64,000 nt of DNA, taken from the NCBI GenBank assembly GCA_905221085.1, contig CAJNBT010000006.1, positions 62,001 through 126,000 of the forward strand, written 5' to 3'. The DNA is from a bacterium (GTDB taxonomy: Bacteria > Bacillota > Bacilli > Lactobacillales > Streptococcaceae). The notes below the pieces were generated by a model. That model was not told where the DNA came from, did not search any database, and saw only the letters and a list, made by a program, of their open reading frames with translations. Below are positions 37,807-52,451 of this stretch, piece after piece (positions within the stretch are counted from its first letter, which is position 1; each line of letters begins with the position of its first letter). Both the position numbers and the translations under genes were made by a program.

Positions 37807-39156
37807 TTACTCTTTGTTCAAAAATTGATCCAAATAATAACGCAGGTAACTTTTCTTGCCCGTAATCATCTGTAGGCGGCCTTCCACCCCGTAACGAAGT
37901 CTTTCAGCCTGCTCAGAAGTTAGATTAGTCTCCGCCTCAATTTTAAAGAAATTTCCTTTCTCAGTCTTAGTTGCTGTCGCATCAATACTTGTAATAGTAG
38001 AATCTAGGAAAAGTTGATTCTTGGCATCATGAGTCGTCGTATAGCGAACAGAATCACCGACCTTGATTCTTGCTACATCTTTTGAACTTAGATAAGCTGT
38101 GAGTTTGGCTTTCCCTTCTTTTTCCAAGGACGGATAGAGTTGGGCTAGTAGGGCGCCTTCTGCAACCATGGTAGAGTCACTGGTTTCAGGATTAAGATGA
38201 AGCACCCCATCCTCACTCGCCGTAATTTTCCCCTTGTCTAAAAGATTTCCCTGTACCTTCTTGCCTGACTCTGCTTCCAAGATTTTCTGGTCTAGAAGGG
38301 TCAATTCCTGACCAACCTTTGCCAAGTGTTGGGATTTAAGGGATTCCAATTGACTGCTTAAGCCTGACGCATAGGCTTGCTGGGTACCTGAACCTGCATA
38401 CTGGACACGGTAAGTAGCGAGACTAGATTCTAACTGAGAAAGCTGCGCTTCAACCTGCGCAACTGCTTGTGCCTTAGCTTGCGGATTTTCCTCACCCTGA
38501 GACTTGTAGGACTGGTAGAGAGAGTAGGCTAGATTCTGACTGGCCAAGGAAGCACCTGTTTCAATAGCTGACTTAGCTGTCTGGTAATCGCGAATTTTAG
38601 CCTCTGTTTGACTAATGAGGTTCCCGATTTCAGCTTGGGTTTGACTAGCTGCTGCATTCTGGGACGCGATGGTCTCATTTTGTTGCGATGTACTAGCCCT
38701 AAGACTACCTGCTTGACTGATGTAGTCGCGAAAGGTGGCTTGGTAGCCAAATTTATCCTCCTCTGGAAAGTGGTTCTCCCCTTCTTGCAGGCTCTTTTGC
38801 AAATACTCCAATTGCTTTTTTTGATCCTTAAGCATGTCCAACTGACTGCCATAAGCCTCTGCTTGGACACCTTCTGCCCCTTCCTGGTATTGAACAAGAA
38901 GCTCCCCCTTCTTGACCAGCTTATTTTCTTCCAAATGATTGACAAGAATACGATTGTTGCTAGTAGACTGGATATTTGCAAGGATACGACTAGGCTCGAC
39001 AGTAGCTCTAGTAGACAAACTCATCTCCTTCTCTGCAAATGTTGCAAAGCCAAGCAAAAACACGAGCAGAAGGGACATGGGGACAATCACCCGACTGGAA
39101 AAATTATGGTAACGACGGTTATAAAACTCCGCACTTTCTAAAAATTCTGGTTTCAT
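37807..39156 (-). CDS. comB: Competence-factor transport accessory protein ComB
   Basis: This 449-residue HlyD-family membrane fusion protein works with ComA in export of the competence peptide and, in several strains, of bacteriocins. It has one N-terminal membrane helix ([19 protein letters not shown]), a long coiled-coil middle rich in Gln/Ala/Glu (about 100-290), and a beta-rich C-terminal region. It starts 12 bp after comA ends. Length and neighbours match pneumococcal ComB. Confidence 0.95.
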
Positions 39157-39168
39157 CCTCTCCTCTTT

Positions 39169-41322
39169 CTAGCTATTTACCAAATGGGCATAAAATCCAC
39201 CCTGTGCAAGCAAATCAGCATGATTTCCTTCTTCAACAATCTTGCCCTGATCCAAGACAACAACCTTCTCTGTCCGCTCTGCAATGGTCAAGCGGTGGGC
39301 GATGAAAATCAAGGTCTTGTCTAAAGCCATGAGATTATCGACAATTCGCTTCTCTGTCAAAATATCCAAACTGCTGGTCGCTTCATCCAAAATCAAGACC
39401 GGTGCATCTGTCAAGAGAGCACGCGCCAGAGCGATTCTCTGACGTTGACCACCTGAAATCCCTGCTCCATCCGAAGTCAATTCCGTCTGGTAATTCAGAG
39501 GCATGCGCTCAATGTCCTCCCGAATCTCTGCCAATTCGACCGCCCGTAAGATATCCTCTTGAGTCGTCCCTTCCTTGGCCCCAAGGAGAAGATTCTCCAA
39601 AATCGTTCCGTTAAAGACATAAGGATGTTGAGGCAGATAGTTGATATACTGACGCAGAGCCTTTTTATCAATCTGATTGAGATTGACACCACCCAGACTA
39701 ATCTCTCCCTGACTTGGGTCGTAAAAATTAACCATCATCTTGGCCAAGGTCGTCTTACCTGACCCTGAAATTCCCACAAAAGCCACCTTAGAGCCTTGGG
39801 GAATAGTCAAATTGATATCCGACAAGACATCTCGACCATAGCCATACTTGTAGGAAACCTGCTTGAAGGTCATCTCTCCCTTCATCAAGCTCAAATCCTC
39901 AACTGTTTTCTTCTCCTCAAACTCAGAAGCTACCAGATAAACCTCATTCAGACGGTTATTAGCAACTTGCGCTGTCTGAAGCTTGGTTTGCAGGTTGATG
40001 ATATTTTCCAAAGGATTGGTAAAGTAAACAAGCAAGGTATTATAGGTAATCAACTGTCCCAAACTCATCTTGCCATCCATGACCAGAACAGCCCCCATCC
40101 AGAGAATGCCGACATTGAGCAAGAGATGGGCAACTTTTTTCAGAGCCTTTTGCTGACTCTCTGCTCGACTATAGGTAAAGGATTTTTTCAGATAATCCAC
40201 AAATTCCTTGTCAATCTTTTGGTAGCGTGAACTTTCACTAGTCAAGGACTTGATAGTCTCAATACCGTTGATGTCCTCGATGATAGAAGAAGACAGAACC
40301 GCATTGGCTTCCATGGTGTCCCGATTCATCTTTTCAAACGGCTTCATAAAGGCAAAGATAATCACTGTGTAGATAGGCAGCGCCAATAAGGTCATGAAAA
40401 AGAGATTGGTATTTTGTGAAAATAAAACAAGGGAAATAATGACAACCGTTGACACATCTAGGAAAATCGAAAGGATGGTCGAAGCCAGCGCATCGATAAT
40501 ACTGTTAGCATCTGTAAAACGAGACACGATTTCCCCTGTCCGACGTGTCGCAAAAAAAGACATAGGCAGGTGAAAAACATGCTTGATATAGGACAAAATC
40601 ACGTCAATCGACAAGCGTTGCCCCAAAACAAGTAAGAGATACTCCTGAGCGTAAGACAAGACCTGCTGGAGAATATAGACGATAACCAGCCCAATAGAAA
40701 TAATCCCAAGCGTCGAACGCATCTGATCTGGCACATAGGTATCAATGATAGACTGCAGATAATAAGAACCCACAATATTAATCAAGGTTACCAAGAGTGT
40801 CGCCAAAACGATATTGGCAATCAAGCCACGCTGCTTCACTAATATAGGGATAAAAGAGAGCAAACCATTCTTTTGATCCTTATGAGGCTTGTAGTCTGGA
40901 CTAGGTGCCATAAACAGAGTCACTCCTGTCCATTCTTCCGCAAAACGCTCACGTGGCAGTTTAGTCAACTTCACCCCAGGATCTGGATCGGCAATATGAA
41001 TGCTATTCTTGTCCTGCCCAGTCACCACATAGTAGTGGAGCAATTTTCCTTCCTTAAGCACATGAGCAACAAAAGGAAAAGTCAAATCTGGCAAGTCAAA
41101 GAGCGTCATATCCGCCTTAATTGCTCGCGTCTCAAAACCAATCTCCTCTGCCACCTTGACCAAGCCCAAAGCCGTCGTCCCATCCATGGTCGTCTTGGCC
41201 AATTCTCGCAAGTGAGCCAAAGAATAATAGCTACCATAGTAACCAAAAACCATGGCTAATGAAGCTACACCGCAATCCATCTGATCCACCTGCGGACGAT
41301 AGTGACGTTTCCCAAATTTCAT
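39169..41322 (-). CDS. comA: Competence/bacteriocin ABC exporter-protease ComA
   Basis: This 717-residue transporter cleaves double-glycine leaders and exports the mature peptide. The C39 peptidase domain has catalytic Cys17 in QVDQMDCGVASL and His in KLLHYYVVTG, then Asp in IADPDPG. Six membrane helices follow (about 160-430), then the nucleotide-binding domain with Walker A GISGSGKTT, signature ISGGQRQR and Walker B VLILDEATSS. The second ATG, at 41322, gives the pneumococcal length and correct spacing from AAGGAG. It lies at the end of the bacteriocin cluster and is preceded by a ComE-type repeat. Confidence 0.97.
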   Translation of the reverse strand: MKFGKRHYRPQVDQMDCGVASLAMVFGYYGSYYSLAHLRELAKTTMDGTTALGLVKVAEEIGFETRAIKADMTLFDLPDLTFPFVAHVLKEGKLLHYYVVTGQDKNSIHIADPDPGVKLTKLPRERFAEEWTGVTLFMAPSPDYKPHKDQKNGLLSFIPILVKQRGLIANIVLATLLVTLINIVGSYYLQSIIDTYVPDQMRSTLGIISIGLVIVYILQQVLSYAQEYLLLVLGQRLSIDVILSYIKHVFHLPMSFFATRRTGEIVSRFTDANSIIDALASTILSIFLDVSTVVIISLVLFSQNTNLFFMTLLALPIYTVIIFAFMKPFEKMNRDTMEANAVLSSSIIEDINGIETIKSLTSESSRYQKIDKEFVDYLKKSFTYSRAESQQKALKKVAHLLLNVGILWMGAVLVMDGKMSLGQLITYNTLLVYFTNPLENIINLQTKLQTAQVANNRLNEVYLVASEFEEKKTVEDLSLMKGEMTFKQVSYKYGYGRDVLSDINLTIPQGSKVAFVGISGSGKTTLAKMMVNFYDPSQGEISLGGVNLNQIDKKALRQYINYLPQHPYVFNGTILENLLLGAKEGTTQEDILRAVELAEIREDIERMPLNYQTELTSDGAGISGGQRQRIALARALLTDAPVLILDEATSSLDILTEKRIVDNLMALDKTLIFIAHRLTIAERTEKVVVLDQGKIVEEGNHADLLAQGGFYAHLVNS

Positions 41323-41340
41323 ATCCATCTCCTTTTCCTA

Positions 41341-42038: not shown

Positions 42039-42152
42039 TTACGACATCCTATATATTACTTCAATTTTTAATGTCCCTGCTATTTCTAAGCCACCTCTGG
42101 TATAATCTATTCATAGTCAGAATAGATAACACCGTTCTAAATTACGATTCAT
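42039..42152 (-). pseudogene. Remnant of a double-glycine bacteriocin gene
   Basis: An AAAAAAAGGAG box precedes ATG 42152, and the frame starts MNRNLERC. The DNA aligns with the intact precursor at 42985-43161 (MNLEQFYQLSDDE...), but small length changes and a TAG break it. After the breaks a frame with R-GG-LEIAGTLKIEVIYRMS ending at 42039 can be seen, resembling a leader end plus a mature part. Confidence 0.65.
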
Positions 42153-42984: not shown

Positions 42985-43161
42985 CTAACGCCCACGGCGA
43001 GCAAAATCTGAACCAAATTTGTAACCAGCATTAAAAATCTGTACAGCAGCATTCAGTACTCCTGCAATCCCAACTGCTTCCGCAAGACCAAAACCACCTT
43101 TTGTTCCCACTAATTCATCGTCAGATAATTGATAAAATTGTTCTAAGTTCATGTTCGTCAT
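42985..43161 (-). CDS. Double-glycine class II bacteriocin precursor
   Basis: This 58-residue precursor has a typical leader MTNMNLEQFYQLSDDELVGTKGG (given as positions 1-23, with Leu, Leu and the GG at the end). The mature 35-residue peptide (24-58) is rich in Ala/Gly with GIAGVLNAAVQ and a basic C-terminus FARRGR. The ATG at 43161 overlaps the stop of the upstream membrane protein (TAATG); the second ATG at 43152 is an alternative start. ComA would cleave after GG. No exact known bacteriocin is recognised. Confidence 0.85.
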   Translation of the reverse strand: MTNMNLEQFYQLSDDELVGTKGGFGLAEAVGIAGVLNAAVQIFNAGYKFGSDFARRGR

Positions 43162-43361
43162 TACTCCTTTATATTATATTTTATTGCTATGTAAATGATT
43201 AAAATGAGTATTGGATAAGTAAATACTTCTGAAATATCCATAAAATTTACACTATACTGTCCAGATAATATTTTATAGTCAATTAAAATTTGAACGATAG
43301 TAAAAATAATACGTAGCGATAACAATACCCCTAATAATATCACTTCTTTTTTTAAAAACAT
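43161..43361 (-). CDS. Small membrane protein upstream of bacteriocin gene
   Basis: This 66-residue protein (MFLKKEVILLGVLLSLRIIF...) has two membrane helices and a short polar tail ending KYNIKE. Its TAA overlaps the ATG of the bacteriocin gene at 43161, so the two are translationally coupled. It may be an immunity protein for a lost or preceding bacteriocin. No family is recognised. Confidence 0.6.
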   Translation of the reverse strand: MFLKKEVILLGVLLSLRIIFTIVQILIDYKILSGQYSVNFMDISEVFTYPILILIIYIAIKYNIKE

Positions 43362-43462
43362 AGAAATGCCTCTCTGACTACAATCAGATTATGGTCTATT
43401 CGCATAATACCCTATAGCTACTGTAATGATCCTTTGATAACAATTAATAAACCTGCTCCAAC

Positions 43463-43507
43463 TTATTCACTTTGCTCTACGATTTCAAATTGATTCAAAT
43501 TTTGCAT
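43463..43507 (-). pseudogene. Truncated bacteriocin leader
   Basis: Behind GAGGGG an ATG opens a 14-codon frame MQNLNQFEIVEQSE, which ends at TAA. The sequence is like the start of a double-glycine leader (QFEI... is common in Blp-type leaders). The codons after the stop give VGAGLLIVIKGSLQ, similar to a mature bacteriocin start, so the gene appears to be damaged by a small loss. Confidence 0.6.
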
Positions 43508-43520
43508 GTTATACCCCTCT

Positions 43521-43616
43521 TTAAATAATACTAGCTAAGCCAATAGTGACTCCCACTAATAAACCTACCATCCCTGAGGCTGATATAATAGCCACAAATT
43601 CGTTTGAAAAATTCAT
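43521..43616 (-). CDS. 31-residue hydrophobic peptide, leaderless
   Basis: A GGAG box stands six bases before ATG 43616. The peptide begins MNFSNEFVAIISASGMVGLL and continues with a Gly/Val/Ile-rich end (VTIGLASII). It has no double-glycine leader and no charged residue beyond one Glu. It lies 23 bp after a bacteriocin gene. Possible roles are a leaderless bacteriocin component or the second peptide of a two-peptide pair; neither can be decided. Confidence 0.55.
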   Translation of the reverse strand: MNFSNEFVAIISASGMVGLLVGVTIGLASII

Positions 43617-43639
43617 TGATTTCTCCAAAGTGTTTTATC

Positions 43640-43819
43640 TTATCTGAAGTAACCCCATGCAACTAGCCCTACAGCAGATAAACCACCGACAACATACCCT
43701 GCAACCTTGATTCCTACTGGAACTGCTACTACCGCTGCAGGAAGTACTCCTCCATCAACTGTTGCTAGTTCTTTTTCTGTCATTTCTGTAAACTGATTAT
43801 CATTTACTAAAATATTCAT
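43640..43819 (-). CDS. Double-glycine class II bacteriocin precursor
   Basis: This 59-residue precursor starts at ATG 43819, which overlaps the stop of the preceding gene (ATGA), after AAGGAG. The leader (1-24) reads MNILVNDNQF...KELATVDGG, matching the double-glycine consensus. The mature 35-residue part starts VLPAAVVAVPVGIKVAG and ends VAWGYFR; it has GxxxG-like glycine pairs typical of class II membrane peptides. It would be exported by ComAB or a Blp-type transporter. No named family member is recognised. Confidence 0.85.
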   Translation of the reverse strand: MNILVNDNQFTEMTEKELATVDGGVLPAAVVAVPVGIKVAGYVVGGLSAVGLVAWGYFR

Positions 43820-44010
43820 TTTAAGTTCTCCTTGCTCTTATTCACTTTTGCTTTAAATATTTCTTTTTTATTAATATAGTATGTCAATGCTACTAACAAA
43901 ATACAGCTTTCCAACGATACCTTTTCTAAATTAAGTAGAGAATAAATTAATAATATGCTGTAAGATATTAAAGCAGATCCTATATATATTTTTTTTAATA
44001 TTCTATTCAT
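43816..44010 (-). CDS. Small membrane protein, probable immunity protein for the bacteriocin at 44028
   Basis: This 64-residue protein has two membrane helices (about 8-27 and 34-48) and a highly basic C-terminal tail (KKEIFKAKVNKSKENLK). It follows the bacteriocin gene by 17 bp and overlaps the next one by 4 bp. Two-helix proteins with basic tails are common bacteriocin immunity proteins. No specific family is recognised. Confidence 0.68.
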   Translation of the reverse strand: MNRILKKIYIGSALISYSILLIYSLLNLEKVSLESCILLVALTYYINKKEIFKAKVNKSKENLK

Positions 44011-44027
44011 AAAACTTACTCAAAGTC

Positions 44028-44216
44028 TTATTTCAGATTTTTACCAACTTGATAAAGACCTGCTCCCAGTATAATAGCCCCTCCTGTTACAGAAAAACCT
44101 TTAAACGCAGCTACTCCAAACGCAACTACTAGTGGTGCAATTCCCCCATCTACATTCATCAACTCTTCTTCTGTAAGAGCTACAAAGTTCTGTTCCATTT
44201 TGTCAAAATTTGTCAT
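44028..44216 (-). CDS. Double-glycine class II bacteriocin precursor
   Basis: This 62-residue precursor has a 25-residue leader MTNFDKMEQNF...EEELMNVDGG with all consensus positions. The mature 37-residue peptide (26-62) starts IAPLVVAFGVAAFKG and ends LYQVGKNLK; it is cationic with several glycines. A clear AAAGGAG precedes ATG 44216. It is the first full-size gene after the tandem micro-ORF array and is probably co-transcribed with it. It resembles pneumococcal Blp/Cib-type peptides in organisation, but no name can be given. Confidence 0.9.
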   Translation of the reverse strand: MTNFDKMEQNFVALTEEELMNVDGGIAPLVVAFGVAAFKGFSVTGGAIILGAGLYQVGKNLK

Positions 44217-44246
44217 CTTTTTTCTCCTTTATTTCTATTTTTTAGT

Positions 44247-44294
44247 TTACGATTTCTGGCTCTTAAACCATTTTAAAAACCAGAATAGATAAAT
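44247..44294 (-). CDS. Fifth micro-ORF of the tandem array, with ATT in place of ATG
   Basis: The module has the same upstream block (AGATAAGTGAGACGAAAAGGA) as its neighbours. The frame reads ATT-YLFWFLKWFKSQKS, 15 codons. The initiation codon would be ATT, so it is either weakly translated or dead. The Trp, Phe and Lys pattern is kept, which argues for common descent with the other four. Confidence 0.4.
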   Translation of the reverse strand: MYLFWFLKWFKSQKS

Positions 44295-44361
44295 TACTGA
44301 ATTCCTTTTCGTCTCACTTATCTATTTGAGAAGTGATTTAAAATGAACAGGTAAATTTCAT

Positions 44362-44412
44362 TTATTTCAAATACCATTTGATAAACCATGGCAATAAGAT
44401 TGGTAAATACAT
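44362..44412 (-). CDS. 16-residue micropeptide, array member 4
   Basis: GGAAGGAG stands eight bases before ATG 44412. The product is MYLPILLPWFIKWYLK, hydrophobic, with net charge about +2 and Trp at 9 and 13. It has no leader, so any export would not use the double-glycine route. The protein family is not known to me. Confidence 0.6.
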   Translation of the reverse strand: MYLPILLPWFIKWYLK

Positions 44413-44486
44413 CGCGTAGTCTCCTTCCTTTTCGTCTCACTTATTTATTCGAAAAATAATTCTAAAATGAACAACTAAATTAAATT

Positions 44487-44537
44487 TTATTTAAAAAATA
44501 ATTTAATGTACCATGAATAGAAAATCGGCAGATACAT
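44487..44537 (-). CDS. 16-residue micropeptide, array member 3
   Basis: AAAGGAG lies eight bases before ATG 44537. The product MYLPIFYSWYIKLFFK is identical to that of member 2, but the third codon is CTG instead of CTA. Net charge about +2. Confidence 0.62.
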   Translation of the reverse strand: MYLPIFYSWYIKLFFK

Positions 44538-44614
44538 AAACCAGACTCCTTTCTTTTCCCTCTTACTTATCTATTCGAAAAAAAATTTTCGAAAATGTAC
44601 AACTAAATTAAATT

Positions 44615-44665
44615 TTATTTAAAAAATAATTTAATGTACCATGAATAGAAAATCGGTAGATACAT
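44615..44665 (-). CDS. 16-residue micropeptide, array member 2
   Basis: AAAGGAG lies eight bases before ATG 44665. The product is MYLPIFYSWYIKLFFK, amphipathic and aromatic-rich. The module is nearly identical to member 3 over its whole length, so one arose recently from the other. Confidence 0.62.
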   Translation of the reverse strand: MYLPIFYSWYIKLFFK

Positions 44666-44739
44666 AAACCAGGCTCCTTTCTTTTTTCTCTCACTTATTT
44701 ATTCGAAAAACAATTCGAAAATGTACAACTAAATTAAAT

Positions 44740-44790
44740 TTATTTAAAAAATAACTCAGTGAACCATGGGTAGAACATTGATATAAACAT
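44740..44790 (-). CDS. 16-residue micropeptide, array member 1
   Basis: GGAAGGG lies about ten bases before ATG 44790. The product is MFISMFYPWFTELFFK. It keeps the length, Trp9 and the C-terminal LFFK, but has Glu where members 2-4 have Lys, so it is neutral. It is the first module after the regulator's terminator. Confidence 0.58.
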   Translation of the reverse strand: MFISMFYPWFTELFFK

Positions 44791-44845
44791 GAACTAGAAT
44801 CCCTTCCTTTTCCTCTTACCTATCTATTCGAAAAAGAAGTCAAAA

Positions 44846-44880
44846 AAATAAGAATATCAGAAAATTTTCCGACATTCTTA
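44846..44880 (-). terminator. Terminator after the response regulator gene
   Basis: On the minus strand AAGAATGTCGG-AAAATT-TTCTGATATTCTT is followed by seven T. It separates the two-component genes from the micro-ORF array. Confidence 0.75.
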
Positions 44881-44909
44881 TTGATAAACTCATCCAAGTC
44901 TAACAGATA

Positions 44910-45641
44910 TTAGACATTGAGATGTTTTTTAAGGGTTCTTCTGGCTGTTCGTGATACGGGGAAGTGCAAGCCTTCTAACAGGGTCACTTCTGTCGCAGTC
45001 ATCTCTTCAATGGCCTGTAAACTAACCAACGTATTGCGATTGGCATAGACAAAGTAATCTTTTTCAGCCTTGGCAGCAATATCTTTGAGACTGCCATAAA
45101 TGGTCTTGATAGAATGATTGGCATAATAGACCTTGATACGATGAGATTCAACTGAAGTTTCAAAGGCTAAAATCTCATGGTAGGGCAGAGTAAAGCCCCG
45201 TCTTCCCTCAAAACTATAGGTGAAGAGACACATATTTTCCCTCTTATCCACTGCTAATACATAGTCCAAACAGCGCTCCAGCTGATAACGGTAATCCTCC
45301 TCAGACTGATCCTTGGAAATAAAATCCAAGGCAGACAAGTGGTAGCGAAAAGCTAGAGGCAAGGCCTCCGAGTGCGTAGACACAAAGACAATGCTTGTAA
45401 AAGGATCCTGCTCCCGAACCTGCTGAGCAACCTGAAAGCCTCGTTCACGCTCTCCATCAATCTCTAAATCCAATAAATAGAGTTGGTAATGATCAAAATA
45501 CTGAGAATACTTTTCAACATCTCCATAGTTTTTGGCAATATCAATTTCCAATCTTAAATTGCGAGAGCGACCGATATCTAGTAAAGTCTGCTCTATCCGT
45601 CCTTGCTGGACTCTATCATCTTCCAAAACTAAAATTCTCAT
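44910..45641 (-). CDS. ComE/BlpR-family response regulator (LytTR)
   Basis: This 243-residue regulator has a receiver domain with the acidic pocket LEDD at 7-9 and phosphoacceptor Asp58 in LYLLDLE. A LytTR DNA-binding domain starts near residue 140 and includes RNTLVSLQAIEE and FPVSRTARRTLKKHL. ComE, BlpR and AgrA have this layout and bind paired 9-bp direct repeats. It overlaps the kinase gene by 4 bp. It is clearly related to ComE/BlpR but not obviously either, so it may be a third peptide-sensing system controlling the bacteriocin cluster. Confidence 0.87.
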   Translation of the reverse strand: MRILVLEDDRVQQGRIEQTLLDIGRSRNLRLEIDIAKNYGDVEKYSQYFDHYQLYLLDLEIDGERERGFQVAQQVREQDPFTSIVFVSTHSEALPLAFRYHLSALDFISKDQSEEDYRYQLERCLDYVLAVDKRENMCLFTYSFEGRRGFTLPYHEILAFETSVESHRIKVYYANHSIKTIYGSLKDIAAKAEKDYFVYANRNTLVSLQAIEEMTATEVTLLEGLHFPVSRTARRTLKKHLNV

Positions 45642-46972
45642 TCCTCTCCCCCTCGTTTCTCATCCTTAAATGGCAATTCTAAATCTTGTCTAAAGGTCGT
45701 CTCTCCTAGCTGGGTATCTAAGTTTAAATCATAATGAAAAACCATATCCTCCAAGGTTGCTAAGCCCAGTCCACTGTGGTTTCCCTTGGTAGAGTAACCC
45801 TTTTGACTGAGAATGCTGGGATTCAGTTCTTCTTTCTTACGAGTGTTTTCAATGATAAAACGGACACTCCTATCGCCTGCCAATAAAGCAACCCGAATCT
45901 GCGGATTTTCCGCCTCACTGGCTGCCTCTAAAGCATTTGTCGTGAGGATAGAGAGGATACGAATAGCCTCTAACATCGGCAAAACCAGCTCTTCAACAAC
46001 CCCCACCGTCTCCAAACTAAAATGAATTCCCTGATTATCTGCCACAATCATGGCTTTTGCCAAGGTATTGCGAATGGCTATATCATGGATATTGTGAAGA
46101 TTAAAGGCCGTGTAATCCGCCTTCCTCAGCTTTTCATTGGTCTTTAGAAAGACATCTTGATAAATGGTAGAAACTTCAGCCATGTCTTGATTAGCTATGG
46201 CAGGCTCCATGCTAGCGACAATTCCCGCAAAATCATGACGGAAACCTCGCACTTCATCATAGAGATGACCTAGCTTGTCCACCATCCCTTGCAAGGAACG
46301 ATTTTCTTCTTCCTGTCTCTGAATGGTCTGCTCATCACGATAAACCTGCTCCAAATGCTTGATGTAAAAGAGCCAAGAGAAAAAAAGAATGAAAATCAGA
46401 AGAGAGATGGTCGTGTCAAAACGAACGTAGAAAGGATTACATCCCCCAGACATGATGGATGAAAATAGTCTGAAACCAAACAATAAGGATAAAATCCACA
46501 TACTTTTCATCACTAACGATTGAAATTTATCTAAAAATAATATATTGAAATCAATCCCCCATCGTCTTAAAATGACAACAGACAAAAACAACGAAATCAA
46601 ACTAAATACAGAATTAAATCCACTATGCAAAAAATCAGATAGTTCAGAGTAGTCAAATATCAATCGTATTATAAATGTCAAAACCAAATATCGAATACTT
46701 TGATAAAACACAAATAGATAAAGGGCAAGAAATATAGCTTCCTTCTTCTTTTTCTTTAACACAATCCAAAATATTATATAAAAGAATAATAAATTGGCAA
46801 CATGCGAGAAACTCGGAAAAACGAAGGTAGCAAATAGCTGAAAAACTACCAAAAGAAATATAGAACGTTTGTCATAAAATGCTTTAGAGAGTTGACTACC
46901 TAGATAAATCGGAGGAGCTAAAATATTGATTAAAATCAATATAAACACTAAAAATTCAAGTAATATAATCAT
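45638..46972 (-). CDS. ComD/BlpH/AgrC-type peptide-sensing histidine kinase
   Basis: This 444-residue kinase has six or seven hydrophobic segments in the first 210 residues, the peptide-receptor region of HPK10 kinases. The H-box is DEVRGFRHDFAGIV (His near residue 245), the N-box is ILTTNALEAA, and the G-box is KGNHSGLGLATLED; there is no conventional HAMP or D-box-rich HK domain, as in ComD. Its ATG follows a candidate pheromone gene in the place where comC or blpC would lie. The signal cannot be deduced. Confidence 0.87.
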   Translation of the reverse strand: MIILLEFLVFILILINILAPPIYLGSQLSKAFYDKRSIFLLVVFQLFATFVFPSFSHVANLLFFYIIFWIVLKKKKKEAIFLALYLFVFYQSIRYLVLTFIIRLIFDYSELSDFLHSGFNSVFSLISLFLSVVILRRWGIDFNILFLDKFQSLVMKSMWILSLLFGFRLFSSIMSGGCNPFYVRFDTTISLLIFILFFSWLFYIKHLEQVYRDEQTIQRQEEENRSLQGMVDKLGHLYDEVRGFRHDFAGIVASMEPAIANQDMAEVSTIYQDVFLKTNEKLRKADYTAFNLHNIHDIAIRNTLAKAMIVADNQGIHFSLETVGVVEELVLPMLEAIRILSILTTNALEAASEAENPQIRVALLAGDRSVRFIIENTRKKEELNPSILSQKGYSTKGNHSGLGLATLEDMVFHYDLNLDTQLGETTFRQDLELPFKDEKRGGEE

Positions 46973-46984
46973 AAATCCGTTTAA

Positions 46985-47090
46985 TTAACCCATTAGTAGC
47001 AAAACACTAGCTTTGCTTTGGAAATCGATATTACCAACTGTAAATATCTTCAAATTGTTCCAATTCTACAAATGTATTTTTCATTTTCAT
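46985..47090 (-). pseudogene. Decayed ComC-like pheromone precursor gene
   Basis: AAAAGGAG precedes ATG 47090. The frame MKMKNTFVELEQFEDIYSW stops after 19 codons. The first part matches double-glycine leaders of ComC (MKNTVKLEQF...). In the +1 frame the sequence continues TVGNIDFQSKASVLLLMG and stops at 46985, 13 bp before the kinase ATG. A single-base shift could join a leader to a short mature peptide. It might instead be an active 19-residue product; loss of function is more likely. Confidence 0.5.
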
Positions 47091-47243: not shown

Positions 47244-48428
47244 TTATTTTACCACAAGAACCTTGTAATATTCATACTTATTTGGCTGTGTAATCTTAAT
47301 TTTTTGACCATAGAAACCATCGATTTCTTTATCAAAATAATCTGAAAATCCTGATGGCAAGCGTTTCATCTTAAGAACCTCTCCAGATTGGTCTGCATAT
47401 ACAAGGAAATGATAGTGGGTTGTAGACATACCGTCATCAATCAATACAAAGTAACCTGTTTTAAGCTTACCATTAACTTCATCTAAATAGTATAATTTAT
47501 TGTTATTGATTGTGAAGCTAGTAGATGGAAGTCTAAGTCGTACACCTGGGTTTTCTAGATAAAGATCATTACCAACTTTTTTGATTTCTGATCTAGTTGT
47601 CATCTCTGGAAGTGGTGTCACTCTACGACCATCTGCTCCAAAGTAATATCGACCTGGTAGATTTTGGAAATTACGAATGACAGCTTTAGGATCAATTTCT
47701 TGTCCTTCTTCTTTATTATCTACTAAAGCTAAGGTAGTATTTGCAACCTCATCCCCATATTTGTCGGAAAACTTCTTAAACTCTGGTTTGATATACCAAG
47801 TGTTTTTATCCACGATAACATCAGTATAGTTATGTCCGTCAAATTTTGCTGTAATTAGATATTCATAGCCATCGCCTAAACGAACAATGTCACCATTTTT
47901 ATAAGGGCTATTTCGTAAAGTGAACATATGGCCATCCTTGCTGAGAATATAGCCTGTCCCATCACTAGAATTTACAACTCTATCAGAGGCCATTGCACCT
48001 GATTGTTCAAAATAATACCAATTACCATTTATGAACTCCCAACCTGTCATCATAGAACCACTAAAATGAAGATAGTACCAAGTAGCTCCTTCTTTGTACC
48101 AACCTGTACGCATGGCACCACTATCTGCTAGTGAGTACCAGGTGTTGCCTTCCTTGTACCAACCTGTGCGCATAGCACCACTATCTGCTAGTGAGTACCA
48201 GGTATCACCGTCTTTGAGCCAACCTGTCTGCATTTTACCAGAACCGTCAAAGTGGTACCAAGAGCCAGCATTTTGTACCCATTTATTTTTAGCAAGACTG
48301 CCATCTTGAGAAAGATTCCAGTCAGAACCATTTTTAACCCAAGTATCTGCAGCCTTTGCTTGATTGATAGACAAAAGTAGACCAGCACCTACAAGCAAAC
48401 CAAGTGTGAGTAATTTAGATTTTTTCAT
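47244..48428 (-). CDS. Choline-binding protein with an unrecognised C-terminal domain
   Basis: This 394-residue protein has a signal peptide (MKKSKLLTLGLLVGAGLLLS...AKAA), then about six choline-binding repeats (GW..DGDTWYSLADSGAMRTGWY type, 30-165), which attach it to phosphocholine on teichoic acid. From about residue 175 to the end is a domain that I do not recognise; it has YYFGADGRRV and LPSGFSDYFDKEIDGFYG. The repeats come before the unknown domain, the reverse of LytA. The second ATG (48428) has the better spacing from AAAGGAGG. A paralogue lies at 49583-50773. Confidence 0.85.
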   Translation of the reverse strand: MKKSKLLTLGLLVGAGLLLSINQAKAADTWVKNGSDWNLSQDGSLAKNKWVQNAGSWYHFDGSGKMQTGWLKDGDTWYSLADSGAMRTGWYKEGNTWYSLADSGAMRTGWYKEGATWYYLHFSGSMMTGWEFINGNWYYFEQSGAMASDRVVNSSDGTGYILSKDGHMFTLRNSPYKNGDIVRLGDGYEYLITAKFDGHNYTDVIVDKNTWYIKPEFKKFSDKYGDEVANTTLALVDNKEEGQEIDPKAVIRNFQNLPGRYYFGADGRRVTPLPEMTTRSEIKKVGNDLYLENPGVRLRLPSTSFTINNNKLYYLDEVNGKLKTGYFVLIDDGMSTTHYHFLVYADQSGEVLKMKRLPSGFSDYFDKEIDGFYGQKIKITQPNKYEYYKVLVVK

Positions 48429-48625
48429 AGCCATTTCCTCCTTTATTGAATAGTTATAAAAAGATATTTTTCCATCATAAACATTCTACATAACTCCTAA
48501 TAATCCTTAAGAGTCAAGCAACACCTTCTTTCTATCATCATTGCCCACCCCACACCTTTATGATATACTAAATATAAATATTTTCCTAAAACTTCTACTT
48601 TTGGAACATTTTTGGAGGCAAAAAT

Positions 48626-49501
48626 ATGCGGTGGGATATTGGTTCAGTTTATAAATACATTCGTAAGTCAAAAGGGATTACACAAAATGAGGTCTGTGGT
48701 GACTACATTACTCATTCTAACTTATCTAAGTTTGAAAATAATCATTCTACTCCTAGGTATGATACTATGGAGTTGCTTTTGAGGCAAATTGATATGAGTT
48801 TCGATGAATTTCATTATATTTGTCAACATTACCAAACGGATTCTCGTAAGAAATTATTTTCAGAATATTATCAAGTCATTTCTTCACCTAATCTAGAAGA
48901 AATGAAGGCACTGCTATCAAAATGTCAAATTTATCTAGATGAAGTGCAGAATGATATCCCAATAGAACATGCTGTGAAAGAACTAACCATTTTTATATAA
49001 GTAATTGAAAATCAGTTTTCCGATAAAGCTCAAGCCTTGGCTGAGGAATTATGGAAAGAATTGGAAAAAAGAGATCAGTGGTTCCTCTCAGATTTACGAT
49101 TGCTAGTGATGATCATTTTCCATTTCCCTATTGATTCACTAGAAATGCTACGTCAAAGACTTGTAAAATCTCTAAATAAATACACAGATTATCGTCCAAT
49201 TCAAAGTATTCATTACTCCATTCTAGCCAATATGACACGAATGTACCTTGAAGCAGGGAAGAAAGATGACTGTCTATGCTTAATTCAAGAATGTCTTGAT
49301 TTAGCAAAAATATTGAAACGATACGATTTATTAGGTGTAGTTCAAGTACGTCTGGGAATTGTTAATGAAGATCATACTATGATTAATAAAGGATTATCCT
49401 TACTCGAATCAACAGATGAAAGTCGATTACTAGAAGAAATGAAAAGAGAAGTTAGTGATTATTATCAAGCAGATTTTTTTGAAACAGAGACCAAACAGTA
49501 A
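48626..49501 (+). pseudogene. Rgg/GadR/MutR-type regulator interrupted by a stop codon
   Basis: The first part (48626-49000) encodes an HTH of the Rgg/PlcR group (SVYKYIRKSKGITQNEVCGDY). In the same frame after a TAA (48998-49000) the protein continues as VIENQFSDKAQALAEELWKEL to 49501, with the helical repeat domain that binds peptides. A single substitution could have made TAA from AAA. Total would be about 291 residues, full Rgg length. It lies between two choline-binding protein genes transcribed away from or toward it, and may have regulated them. Confidence 0.8.
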
Positions 49502-49582: not shown

Positions 49583-50773
49583 TTATTTCACAACAGAAAC
49601 ATTTCCTGTTGAACTGTCATATCTAACAGTTTCTCCATAAAAACCGGAAATTCCTTTTTCAATATAATCACGGAAATCATTAGGCAAAACTTTCATCTTC
49701 ACGATTTCACCAGATTCATCTGCATAGCCCAAAATATGGTGATCTTTAGATAATAATCCATCCATAAACATTGTAAAATATCCAGTTACAAGTTTACCAT
49801 TATGATCATTGGCACCTCTTAGATAAAGTTTATTGTCATTAATTGTCAATCCAGATGAGTCTAGACTAATAACTGGACTTGAGTTTTTAAGATAAAGTTC
49901 AGACCCAACTTTTTGAATAGGGAAGTGAGTAGTGAATTCTGGTAGATTCGCAACCTTACGTCCATCTGCTCCAAAGTAATACTTATTTGGTAAGTTTTGG
50001 AAATTCTTTATGACAGCTTTAGGATCAATTTCTTCCCCTGGTTTTTTATTATCAGTAATTGCATCTAAAGTATTTCGTTTTATATCGCCAATCTTTTGAT
50101 AAGAAAAACGTTCAACAATAGGTTTGATATACCAGGCATTCTTTTCGATAACAACTCCATCTTTCTTATGAACAAGGTGATAGTCATAACCATCAGACAA
50201 AGTAACGATATCTGTAATAACTGTATCATCAAAAGGATCTTGTTCAACTTCACTTGGAAGTCTGGTTAACATATAGCCATTCTTACCAATGACATAACTT
50301 TCCCCATCACTGGCTGGAACAGCTCTATCTGCGACCATAGCACCTGATTTTTCAAAGTAAGACCATTTACCATTGGCAGTCGCCCATCCTGTTGCCATAG
50401 CGCCACTGCCTTTGAGGTAATACCATGTAGATCCTTCTTTGTACCAGCCAGTACGCATAGCGCCACTACTTGCGAGCGAGTACCATGTGTTACCTTCCTT
50501 GTACCAGCCAGTTCGCATAGCACCACTATCTGCTAGAGAATACCATGTATCACCGTCTTTGAGCCAGCCTGTCTGCATTTTACCAGTGCTGTCGAAGTGA
50601 TACCATGAGCCAGCATTTTGTACCCATTTATCCTTAGCGAGACTGCCATCTTGTGAAAGATTCCAGTCAGCACCATTTTTAACCCAAGTATCTGCAGCTT
50701 GTGCTTGGTTAATAGACAAAAGCAGACCAGCACCTGCAAGCAAACCAAGAGTAAGTAGTTTAGATTTTTTCAT
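49583..50773 (-). CDS. Choline-binding protein, paralogue of 47244-48428
   Basis: This 396-residue protein has the same plan: signal peptide, about six choline-binding repeats (30-165), and a C-terminal unknown domain. The repeats are nearly identical to those of the paralogue; the C-terminal domains are more diverged but share KAVIKNFQNLPNKYYFGADGR (motif at about 255-275) and a final FYGE. The second ATG (50773) after AAAGGAGG is taken as start. The upstream A+T-rich gap (50774-51059) shows no gene. Confidence 0.85.
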   Translation of the reverse strand: MKKSKLLTLGLLAGAGLLLSINQAQAADTWVKNGADWNLSQDGSLAKDKWVQNAGSWYHFDSTGKMQTGWLKDGDTWYSLADSGAMRTGWYKEGNTWYSLASSGAMRTGWYKEGSTWYYLKGSGAMATGWATANGKWSYFEKSGAMVADRAVPASDGESYVIGKNGYMLTRLPSEVEQDPFDDTVITDIVTLSDGYDYHLVHKKDGVVIEKNAWYIKPIVERFSYQKIGDIKRNTLDAITDNKKPGEEIDPKAVIKNFQNLPNKYYFGADGRKVANLPEFTTHFPIQKVGSELYLKNSSPVISLDSSGLTINDNKLYLRGANDHNGKLVTGYFTMFMDGLLSKDHHILGYADESGEIVKMKVLPNDFRDYIEKGISGFYGETVRYDSSTGNVSVVK

Positions 50774-51059
50774 AGCCATTTCCTCCTTTATTGAATAGCT
50801 ATAAGAGGACTTCCCTCTTTATTTAGCTATATTCTAATACTTTTCATTGTCAAAGTCAATAATATTGTGAAAAATTAGACAATATTACCAATATCTACGA
50901 ATTGTATTTTGAGTAATACCGTATTGATACAACTCTATAAAAATCCTTTCTTTTTTCTCCTTTTTGGAGATTGATTTTTCTGATTCCATTATATCCCTTA
51001 TTTGTCCTCAGATTTCTACTGTCCCTAGAAAGACTAAATCTGTTCCTAAACTGTCACTT

Positions 51060-51219: not shown

Positions 51220-51453
51220 CTATTTTGCTTGAATGATCTTGATAACATCCCCTACACTTTGGAGTTGATCAATTTCCTCGTCACTGATTTCGATATTAAA
51301 TTCATCTTCCAGTGTCAAGATAAACTCCATCAAGTCAACTGAGTCAGCATCCAAATCGTCTTTCAAACTCAAGGATTCTGTCACGACAAAGTCCTCTCCC
51401 TGTCGCTCTTGGATAATGGTCACAATACGGTCAAAAATTTCTTTTTCTGTCAT
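51220..51453 (-). CDS. acpP: Acyl carrier protein, plsX-linked
   Basis: This 77-residue acidic protein has the 4'-phosphopantetheine attachment serine at position 38 in DLDADSVDLMEF. It follows plsX with a short gap. It is probably the ACP that serves phospholipid synthesis with PlsX rather than the one in the fab cluster, a distinction inferred from context in pneumococci. Confidence 0.93.
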   Translation of the reverse strand: MTEKEIFDRIVTIIQERQGEDFVVTESLSLKDDLDADSVDLMEFILTLEDEFNIEISDEEIDQLQSVGDVIKIIQAK

Positions 51454-51458
51454 CTCTT

Positions 51459-52451
51459 TTATTCTCCTGAAAATTCACGCGCAGTCTGGGCAACTACGTC
51501 TGTTTCTAGCATAGTACGAATCTGGCGGATTGTACTATACACAGCTTTGGCATCGCTTGAGCCATGAGTCTTGACAACAGGTGCCTTGACACCAAACAAG
51601 ACTGCTCCACCAACATCTGAGTAATTGAGCTGTTTTTTCAAACCTCTGAGGCTGTCCTTGAGAAGGAGGGCGCCTAGTTTCGCTCGAAGACCACCACCTG
51701 TAATAGCTGTCTTGAGCAAGCCCATGATTCCCATGGCTGTCCCTTCAATGGATTTGAGCACAGCGTTTCCCGTGAAACCATCTGCCACAACAACATCTGC
51801 AACGCCATTCATCAAATCACGTGCTTCCACGTTTCCGATAAAGTTCAAACTTTCATCAGCCGCTAGTAATTCATAGGTTTCCTTACGAAGCGGGTCGCCC
51901 TTACTACTCTCTGTTCCGTTGTTGAGCAAGCCAACACGTGGTTGCGCAATTCCACGAACATTTTTAGCATAGAAGGAACCTAGAACCGCATATTGATGGA
52001 GGTGCTGGGCTGTATTTTCCGCATTAGCACCGAGGTCCAGCATGTCAAAACCTTTCCCATCAATAGTCGGCAAAGTCGACATAAGCCCAGGACGGTCAAT
52101 ATTCTTGATACGACCCACGATGAAGAATCCTGCAGCCAATAAAGCACCTGTATTCCCAGCCGATAGGACAGCGTCTGCTTCTCCTTCTTTGACAGCCTTG
52201 GCCGCCAATACCATACTGGCATTTTTCTTCTTCCGAATAGCTCTCGTAGGTTCAGCGTCTGAATCAATCTTCTCGTCCGTATGGATAATGCTGACGCGCT
52301 CTGTCGCTGTCAGATATTGCTTGATTTTGCTTTCATCTCCGTAGAGTTGAACCTCGATATCTGAAAAGTCAGCTAGGGCTTGATTGACACCCTCGACGAT
52401 GGCTTGGGGTGCGTAATCGCCCCCCATGGCATCTACTGCGATTTTTTTCAT
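51459..52451 (-). CDS. plsX: Phosphate acyltransferase PlsX
   Basis: This 330-residue enzyme forms acyl-phosphate from acyl-ACP for phosphatidic acid synthesis. The start [16 protein letters not shown] and the motif [12 protein letters not shown] are typical. The ATG at 52451 overlaps the recO stop region by 4 bp and is preferred over the extended frame to 52481. Confidence 0.95.

Follow-up and report, generated by a model that had tools for sequence, protein, structure and literature searches.

A tandem array in a streptococcal cab locus combines SigX-type promoter boxes with conserved 16-codon micro-ORFs

In a 64-kb stretch of streptococcal DNA (hereafter, the window), we observe a tandem array (positions 44247-44835, minus strand) in which each intact repeat, as read from the DNA, pairs a SigX (late-competence)-type box with a 16-codon frame that shows purifying selection on its peptide; a short 5′ stretch between the two carries the ribosome-binding site. 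Our preferred explanation, in which our confidence falls somewhat short of even, is that the repeats of the array are autonomous late-competence micro-genes that would encode leaderless aromatic membrane peptides for competence-linked predation, with the tandem promoters also driving the neighboring bacteriocins. This locus has been described before as the cab (competence-associated bacteriocin) cluster, located between plsX-acpP and comAB. As far as our searches go, the promoter repeats are already known, and what is new is a gene within each repeat, in a size class below those described for cab.

The array has a repeat period of 125 to 128 bp (Tandem Repeats Finder and a second repeat search) and contains four intact 16-codon frames on the minus strand, each preceded by a Shine-Dalgarno-like site and lying 125 to 128 bp apart, with ATGs at 44790, 44665, 44537, and 44412 (ORF script). 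In the direction of transcription, micro-ORF 1 (44740..44790) encodes MFISMFYPWFTELFFK and falls into type E in the type comparison, micro-ORFs 2 (44615..44665) and 3 (44487..44537) are of type D and encode the identical peptide MYLPIFYSWYIKLFFK with a CTA/CTG codon difference, and micro-ORF 4 (44362..44412) encodes MYLPILLPWFIKWYLK and is of type B. The corresponding SigX boxes were located by motif search at 44825..44832, 44700..44707, 44572..44579, and 44446..44453, also on the minus strand. The array, its spacing, the peptides, the CTA/CTG change, and the coordinates had been described in an earlier note on this DNA and proved correct with repeat finders, the ORF script, and shuffles. Absent from that note were the strand, the SigX boxes, and a terminator-like hairpin with a T-run (44847..44882, minus strand) just upstream of the array, between it and the two-component genes. 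The note had also counted a fifth module with a frame that starts with ATT. This IYLFWFLKWFKSQKS frame is indeed present, from ATT at 44294 to 44247, but, judged against relatives, whose intact last copies (consensus M(I)ISVIYPIW..KW..) have the ribosome-binding site and ATG that are lost here, the module is a relic of the last (type C) micro-ORF (44247..44294, minus strand). Its promoter box is altered too (CTCAAATA, with CAAATA, at 44323..44330, minus strand). The stretch formed by the relic module and the bacteriocin leader (44200-44330, minus strand) folds better than its shuffles (z = −3.08, a level reached by 2 of 200 shuffles), and a long hairpin spans the relic frame.

SigX control of the micro-genes is well supported. 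The box TTCGAATA lies 33 to 34 nt before each of the four intact frames, and all four modules show TNCGAATA, a T-rich upstream stretch, and the promoter distance by which a SigX box is recognized. The motif TTTTCGAATA has four occurrences in the window, all of them inside the array (100 shuffles: mean 0.27, largest 2), and the same holds for TTCGAATA followed after 30 to 36 nt by ATG (shuffles: mean 0.38, largest 3). Among relatives, the boxes read TTCGAATA, TACGAATA, TGCGAATA, and others, at a near-constant distance from the ATG (mostly 31 to 34 nt). When the array DNA was used as a BLAST query, 144 of 284 Streptococcus genomes matched at an E value of 0.001 or better and, besides the arrays, short matches (29 to 55 bases) were obtained in other genomes. 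Ten of these short-match loci were inspected, and seven lie directly upstream of ssbB (3), dprA (2), comGA (1), or a PC4-type gene (1), as confirmed with Pfam; of the remaining three, one precedes a 126-residue ORF without a Pfam match and one has no evident gene. Since the array DNA matches the promoters of ssbB, dprA, and comGA, we regard the promoter part of each module as SigX promoter sequence. Sigma-70-like sites were not found on either strand of 44000-45000 (0 versus a shuffle mean of 4.1). The third of the remaining short matches is, by eye, a SigX-type box before a small helix-turn-helix gene in another Streptococcus (locus L040, near 2813-2867), a possible candidate for a late-competence regulator.

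These boxes agree with published cab promoters, as far as the available text of the three reports goes. TTCGAATA was matched there as the SigX box of bacteriocin genes upstream of comAB, which RT-PCR in a strain lacking both sigX copies confirmed (PMC6001120), the cab promoter of Streptococcus mitis strain G22 has five tandem SigX boxes and is CSP-induced and sigX-dependent (PMC13059744), and a consensus for the SigX box is given in PMC11921387. CSP- and sigX-dependent transcription is, in the text available, reported for S. mitis cab promoters of strains other than that of the window (PMC13059744, PMC6001120).

With respect to the frames themselves, purifying selection on the encoded peptides, and hence a coding role, is well supported by the comparison of copies. 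The fetched loci gave 230 intact copies (226 in 80 genomes plus the 4 in the window), so that the family is present in at least 80 of the 284 genomes, a lower bound, as the fetched places were those listed by BLAST, with 10 shorter-match loci inspected. Taken with their flanks, 206 copies are unique, and there are 69 unique main-type ORFs that encode 34 unique main-type peptides. ORF length is 16 codons (208 copies) or 17 codons (22 copies). All of the 69 unique main-type ORFs keep M1, K16, and the TAA stop, and 68 of them keep W9. Across these ORFs pN/pS is 0.286 in frame versus 1.08 and 1.40 in the two remaining sense frames, in line with the selection on the peptide that the earlier note had suggested. 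Permuting the alignment columns 60 times gave a mean of 0.83 and a minimum of 0.474, and the excess of third-position changes was matched by 96 of 100,000 permutations. One antisense frame also has a pN/pS of 0.29, presumably due to coinciding third positions, and is interrupted by a stop in 48 of the 69 ORFs. By type, pN/pS is 0.12 for E, 0.17 for D, 0.21 for both B and A, and highest, at 0.34 to 0.43, for C.

Furthermore, 215 of 221 full-module matches to the main-type profile contain an intact family ORF, a count from which most broken last copies are excluded, as the profile derives from intact main-type copies and matches of fewer than 70 model positions were dropped. The other six comprise one that runs into Ns, two with a lost start, two with a premature stop, and one with an in-frame internal deletion. 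Near-complete retention is confined to the main types. Because the copies, being related, are not independent samples and one sequence could have been spread by recombination, which weighs against our preferred explanation, these counts are strong but are not exact probabilities.

The peptides have no leader, in keeping with the earlier note, and no Gly-Gly motif, and the seven consensus peptides contain four to seven aromatic residues; their net charge is 0 in type E and +2 in the other six. Leaderless, aromatic, and mostly cationic, they are probably membrane active, and a toxin or membrane activity is plausible. A classic amphipathic pore-former is not supported, since the hydrophobic moment does not exceed that of the peptide's own shuffles in any of the seven. 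An RNA element was likewise rejected: at its gathering thresholds, Rfam gave no match anywhere in the window, and folding does not set the four intact modules apart from their shuffles (z = 0.46, −0.72, 0.04, and −0.44).

Copy number ranges from one to seven per genome in the fetched stretches, with several diverged types coexisting. Type C or its remnant comes last wherever it is present, and type A nearly always comes first (83 loci with intact copies). Of 68 copies of the last-position type, 48 are intact with ATG, 1 is intact with GTG, and 19 are broken, many by a common start-region deletion and others by a lost start, a frame change, or an early stop; 13 of the 20 flagged copies (the 19 broken ones and the one with GTG) have the CAAATA box. 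This rate of breakage indicates that type C is dispensable in many strains, which counts against our preferred explanation for that type at least. The earlier note had named random breakage of the frames in related genomes as grounds for doubt; the main types escape it, but the last type, broken in several ways, shows it in part. In several loci (L041, L042, L057, L058, and others), a gene for a 42-residue Gly-Gly peptide (MKEHYYGFVELTSEELTDIQGG...) with its own SigX box lies 124 to 125 nt after the last micro-ORF, placed as if substituting for a micro-ORF.

In the order of transcription, the locus reads plsX, acpP, two choline-binding proteins, the two-component genes, the array, the Gly-Gly bacteriocins, comA, comB, and purC. 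On the minus strand of the window, acpP and plsX (51220..52448; Pfam) form the upstream border, followed by the two similar choline-binding proteins (47244-48434 and 49583-50779) and by genes for a LytTR response regulator and a histidine kinase (44910..46972). Directly downstream of the array lies the first Gly-Gly bacteriocin (44028..44216), with no terminator-like site found between the two, and then come further Gly-Gly bacteriocins and small ORFs (42985..44010), the peptidase C39 ABC exporter gene comA (39169..41328), and comB (37807-39156). The S. mitis cab cluster shares this place between plsX-acpP and comAB, the tandem TTCGAATA boxes, and the downstream Gly-Gly bacteriocins, according to the text available (PMC13059744, PMC11921387, PMC6001120). 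The micro-ORFs, at 51 or 54 nt and without Gly-Gly, lie inside the cab locus though outside the definition of Cab bacteriocins, which is given in the accessible text of PMC13059744 as ORFs of 100 to 300 nt with a Gly-Gly leader. No dedicated exporter for the micro-peptides was recognized among the scanned cluster proteins.

In loci with intact copies, the fetched stretch includes comA in 75 of 83 cases and the kinase and response regulator genes in 24 of 83, which places the two-component pair outside the unit; the first intact copy begins 76 to 117 nt after acpP in 48 of the 79 loci in which the acpP motif was found. In seven chosen relatives, a Gly-Gly pheromone gene of several variants (44, 48, or 53 aa) lies upstream of the kinase, and we therefore rejected the micro-peptides as an unlikely pheromone of the adjacent kinase; the earlier note had named signals in general as one option. 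That note's interpretation stands in part: selection on the peptide and the lack of a leader hold, but it missed the SigX box of each copy and the cab identity of the locus, as well as the position of the two-component pair outside the unit. In the window, a 19-codon frame upstream of the kinase (MKMKNTFVELEQFEDIYSW, 47031-47090, minus strand) resembles a shortened remnant of this Gly-Gly pheromone gene, and the pair may be without its own signal in this strain. An Rgg-type regulator gene with one in-frame stop (48626-49501, plus strand) has an N-terminal HTH_3 domain and a C-terminal Rgg_C match just below the Pfam cut-off.

A search of genome contigs with the exact main-type ORF pattern, which was derived from the family itself and which diverged relatives would escape, returned 57 stretches, all of them titled Streptococcus (mitis, oralis, infantis, pseudopneumoniae, some titled pneumoniae, others, and many "sp."). 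The same pattern had no match in viral contigs, and spread of the micro-ORFs by phages was rejected on these grounds. In the genomes searched, the family is found at one locus, from acpP to comAB/purC, and comA and bacteriocin-type ORFs lie downstream, apart from stretches cut by a contig end and from two Streptococcus oralis genomes (G231 and G126). In these two, a pair of modules occupies the acpP-purC interval, which has neither a bacteriocin gene nor comAB; a comA relative (80 to 81%) is found elsewhere beside other Gly-Gly ORFs, with no SigX box in the fetched piece around it, and comGA is present. This arrangement could be due to recent losses, and the G126 genome is only 83% complete.

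Several other readings of the array have to be weighed. In the published one, accumulated SigX boxes boost cab expression, and the frames would be passengers. The available text of PMC13059744 reports that cutting the G22 cab promoter to one box weakens expression and that box number scales with locus size, and the breakage of the last-type frame described above fits as well. We nevertheless consider promoter repeats alone very improbable, given the in-frame selection on the peptide, the 215 intact ORFs among 221 full modules, and an ORF length that stays at 16 or 17 codons despite an ATG-to-ATG spacing that varies from 113 to 165 inside arrays. Translation could instead matter irrespective of its product, with the micro-ORFs loading ribosomes on SigX transcripts or stabilizing a long tandem mRNA, as the ribosome-binding sites, the near-constant box-to-ATG distance, and the lack of a terminator-like site before the bacteriocin would allow. 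Such a role needs no amino acid conservation of the kind observed for Trp9, Lys16, and pN/pS (0.29), and shuffles fold as well as the four intact modules do; we judge it improbable. The small hydrophobic tandem frames of the array can also be likened to those of type I toxins and to short hydrophobic signal peptides, and the Rgg-type gene lies 4 kb away. Quite improbable, in our estimate, is either a type I toxin-antitoxin system, as the sigma-70-like type of promoter, the one scanned for, is absent from both strands of 44000-45000, or a signal for a regulator of the locus: the Gly-Gly pheromone gene by the kinase in the seven relatives speaks against the latter and, where an Rgg signal gene would be sought beside an intact rgg, we find the stop-interrupted gene 4 kb off on the opposite strand and a peptide with its charge near the C terminus.

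A more serious rival, though still an unlikely one, is that the peptides are translated and important within the producing cell, where in competence they would serve as tiny regulators or protectors associated with the membrane and act, for example, on an exporter, an autolysin, or the divisome. It has to be taken seriously because conservation of the main types extends across species and because modules persist in the two S. oralis genomes without adjoining bacteriocins or comAB but with comGA and a comA relative elsewhere; the lack of a leader, the hydrophobic N-terminal part, and the C-terminal Lys are in line with it. Against this, one to seven copies per genome with coexisting diverged types resemble an arsenal, and comA and bacteriocin-type ORFs follow the array in all stretches save those two genomes and the ones cut by contig ends. 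Having Cab bacteriocins as neighbors and a varying copy number leads us to favor a role in competence-linked lysis, although whether the peptides would act in killing, as producer-side regulators, or otherwise is a matter of inference from sequence. The preferred explanation has to accommodate the absence of an amphipathic moment above shuffles, of a recognized exporter, and of the Gly-Gly leader taken by ComAB.

Under the preferred explanation of autonomous late-competence micro-genes, SigX made in competence would fire the promoter of every module, and ribosomes would produce leaderless, probably N-formylated aromatic 16-mers, mostly with a net charge of +2, while transcription from the array would continue into the Gly-Gly bacteriocins. 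The peptides would then target the membrane in a predation program, either killing or sensitizing neighbors together with the Cab bacteriocins or loosening the envelope of the producer itself. The narrower proposition that the tandem cab "promoter repeats" are micro-genes induced in competence, and that their leaderless 16-residue peptides act in their own right as effectors of competence-linked lysis, seems to us possible but doubtful. If it holds, the micro-genes would have been overlooked because bacteriocin searches at this locus took frames of at least 100 nt, and the peptides would be among the smallest unmodified bacteriocin-like gene products. Given that a competence promoter and a conserved 16-residue peptide go with each repeat, the repeats, hitherto explained as additional promoters, probably yield a product too.

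A literature search by peptide sequences returned no description of the family. In what is available of the cab reports, supplements aside, boxes and Gly-Gly ORFs (100 to 300 nt in PMC13059744) are counted and the 16-codon frames are not mentioned (PMC13059744, PMC11921387, PMC6001120), although small unannotated ORFs were searched for in PMC11921387; to this extent, the statement in the earlier note that no such family has been described still stands. The two to three SigX boxes seen in PMC6001120 were left there without a clear explanation, and multiple boxes were later ascribed to promoter strength in PMC13059744, as far as the available text of both goes. The published truncation removed upstream repeats, presumably with both peptide genes and boxes, which makes a direct re-test easy. 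If each box has a selected 16-residue gene, the late-competence program of many oral streptococci would include an overlooked peptide product and would offer a clear case of conserved genes below the usual annotation size limit.

Leaderless multi-peptide bacteriocins such as aureocin A70 and garvicin KS, to which the array is likened by sequence, likewise comprise several homologous cationic peptides without a leader, some with Trp, but in the available table rows of PMC6131525 they have at least 30 residues, whereas the array peptides have 16 to 17 residues, are SigX driven, and have no recognized exporter or immunity gene. The array also shares a format of short leaderless peptides from tandem genes with another group. 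Phenol-soluble modulins of staphylococci have this format together with amphipathic helices and a dedicated exporter, whereas the seven array peptides show no excess hydrophobic moment. A last comparison concerns the pneumococcal gene SP_0042, which we take to be comA. Between SP_0041 and SP_0042 lies the sORF rio3, which is translated and matters for colonization in strain D39, according to the available text of PMC9426450; like the array frames, it is an unannotated micro-ORF near comA, but its sequence (11 aa) and place are different. The window has an exact match to the first 21 bases of rio3 at 42132-42152 (minus strand), on the upstream side of comA, and the same 11-residue peptide is encoded there.
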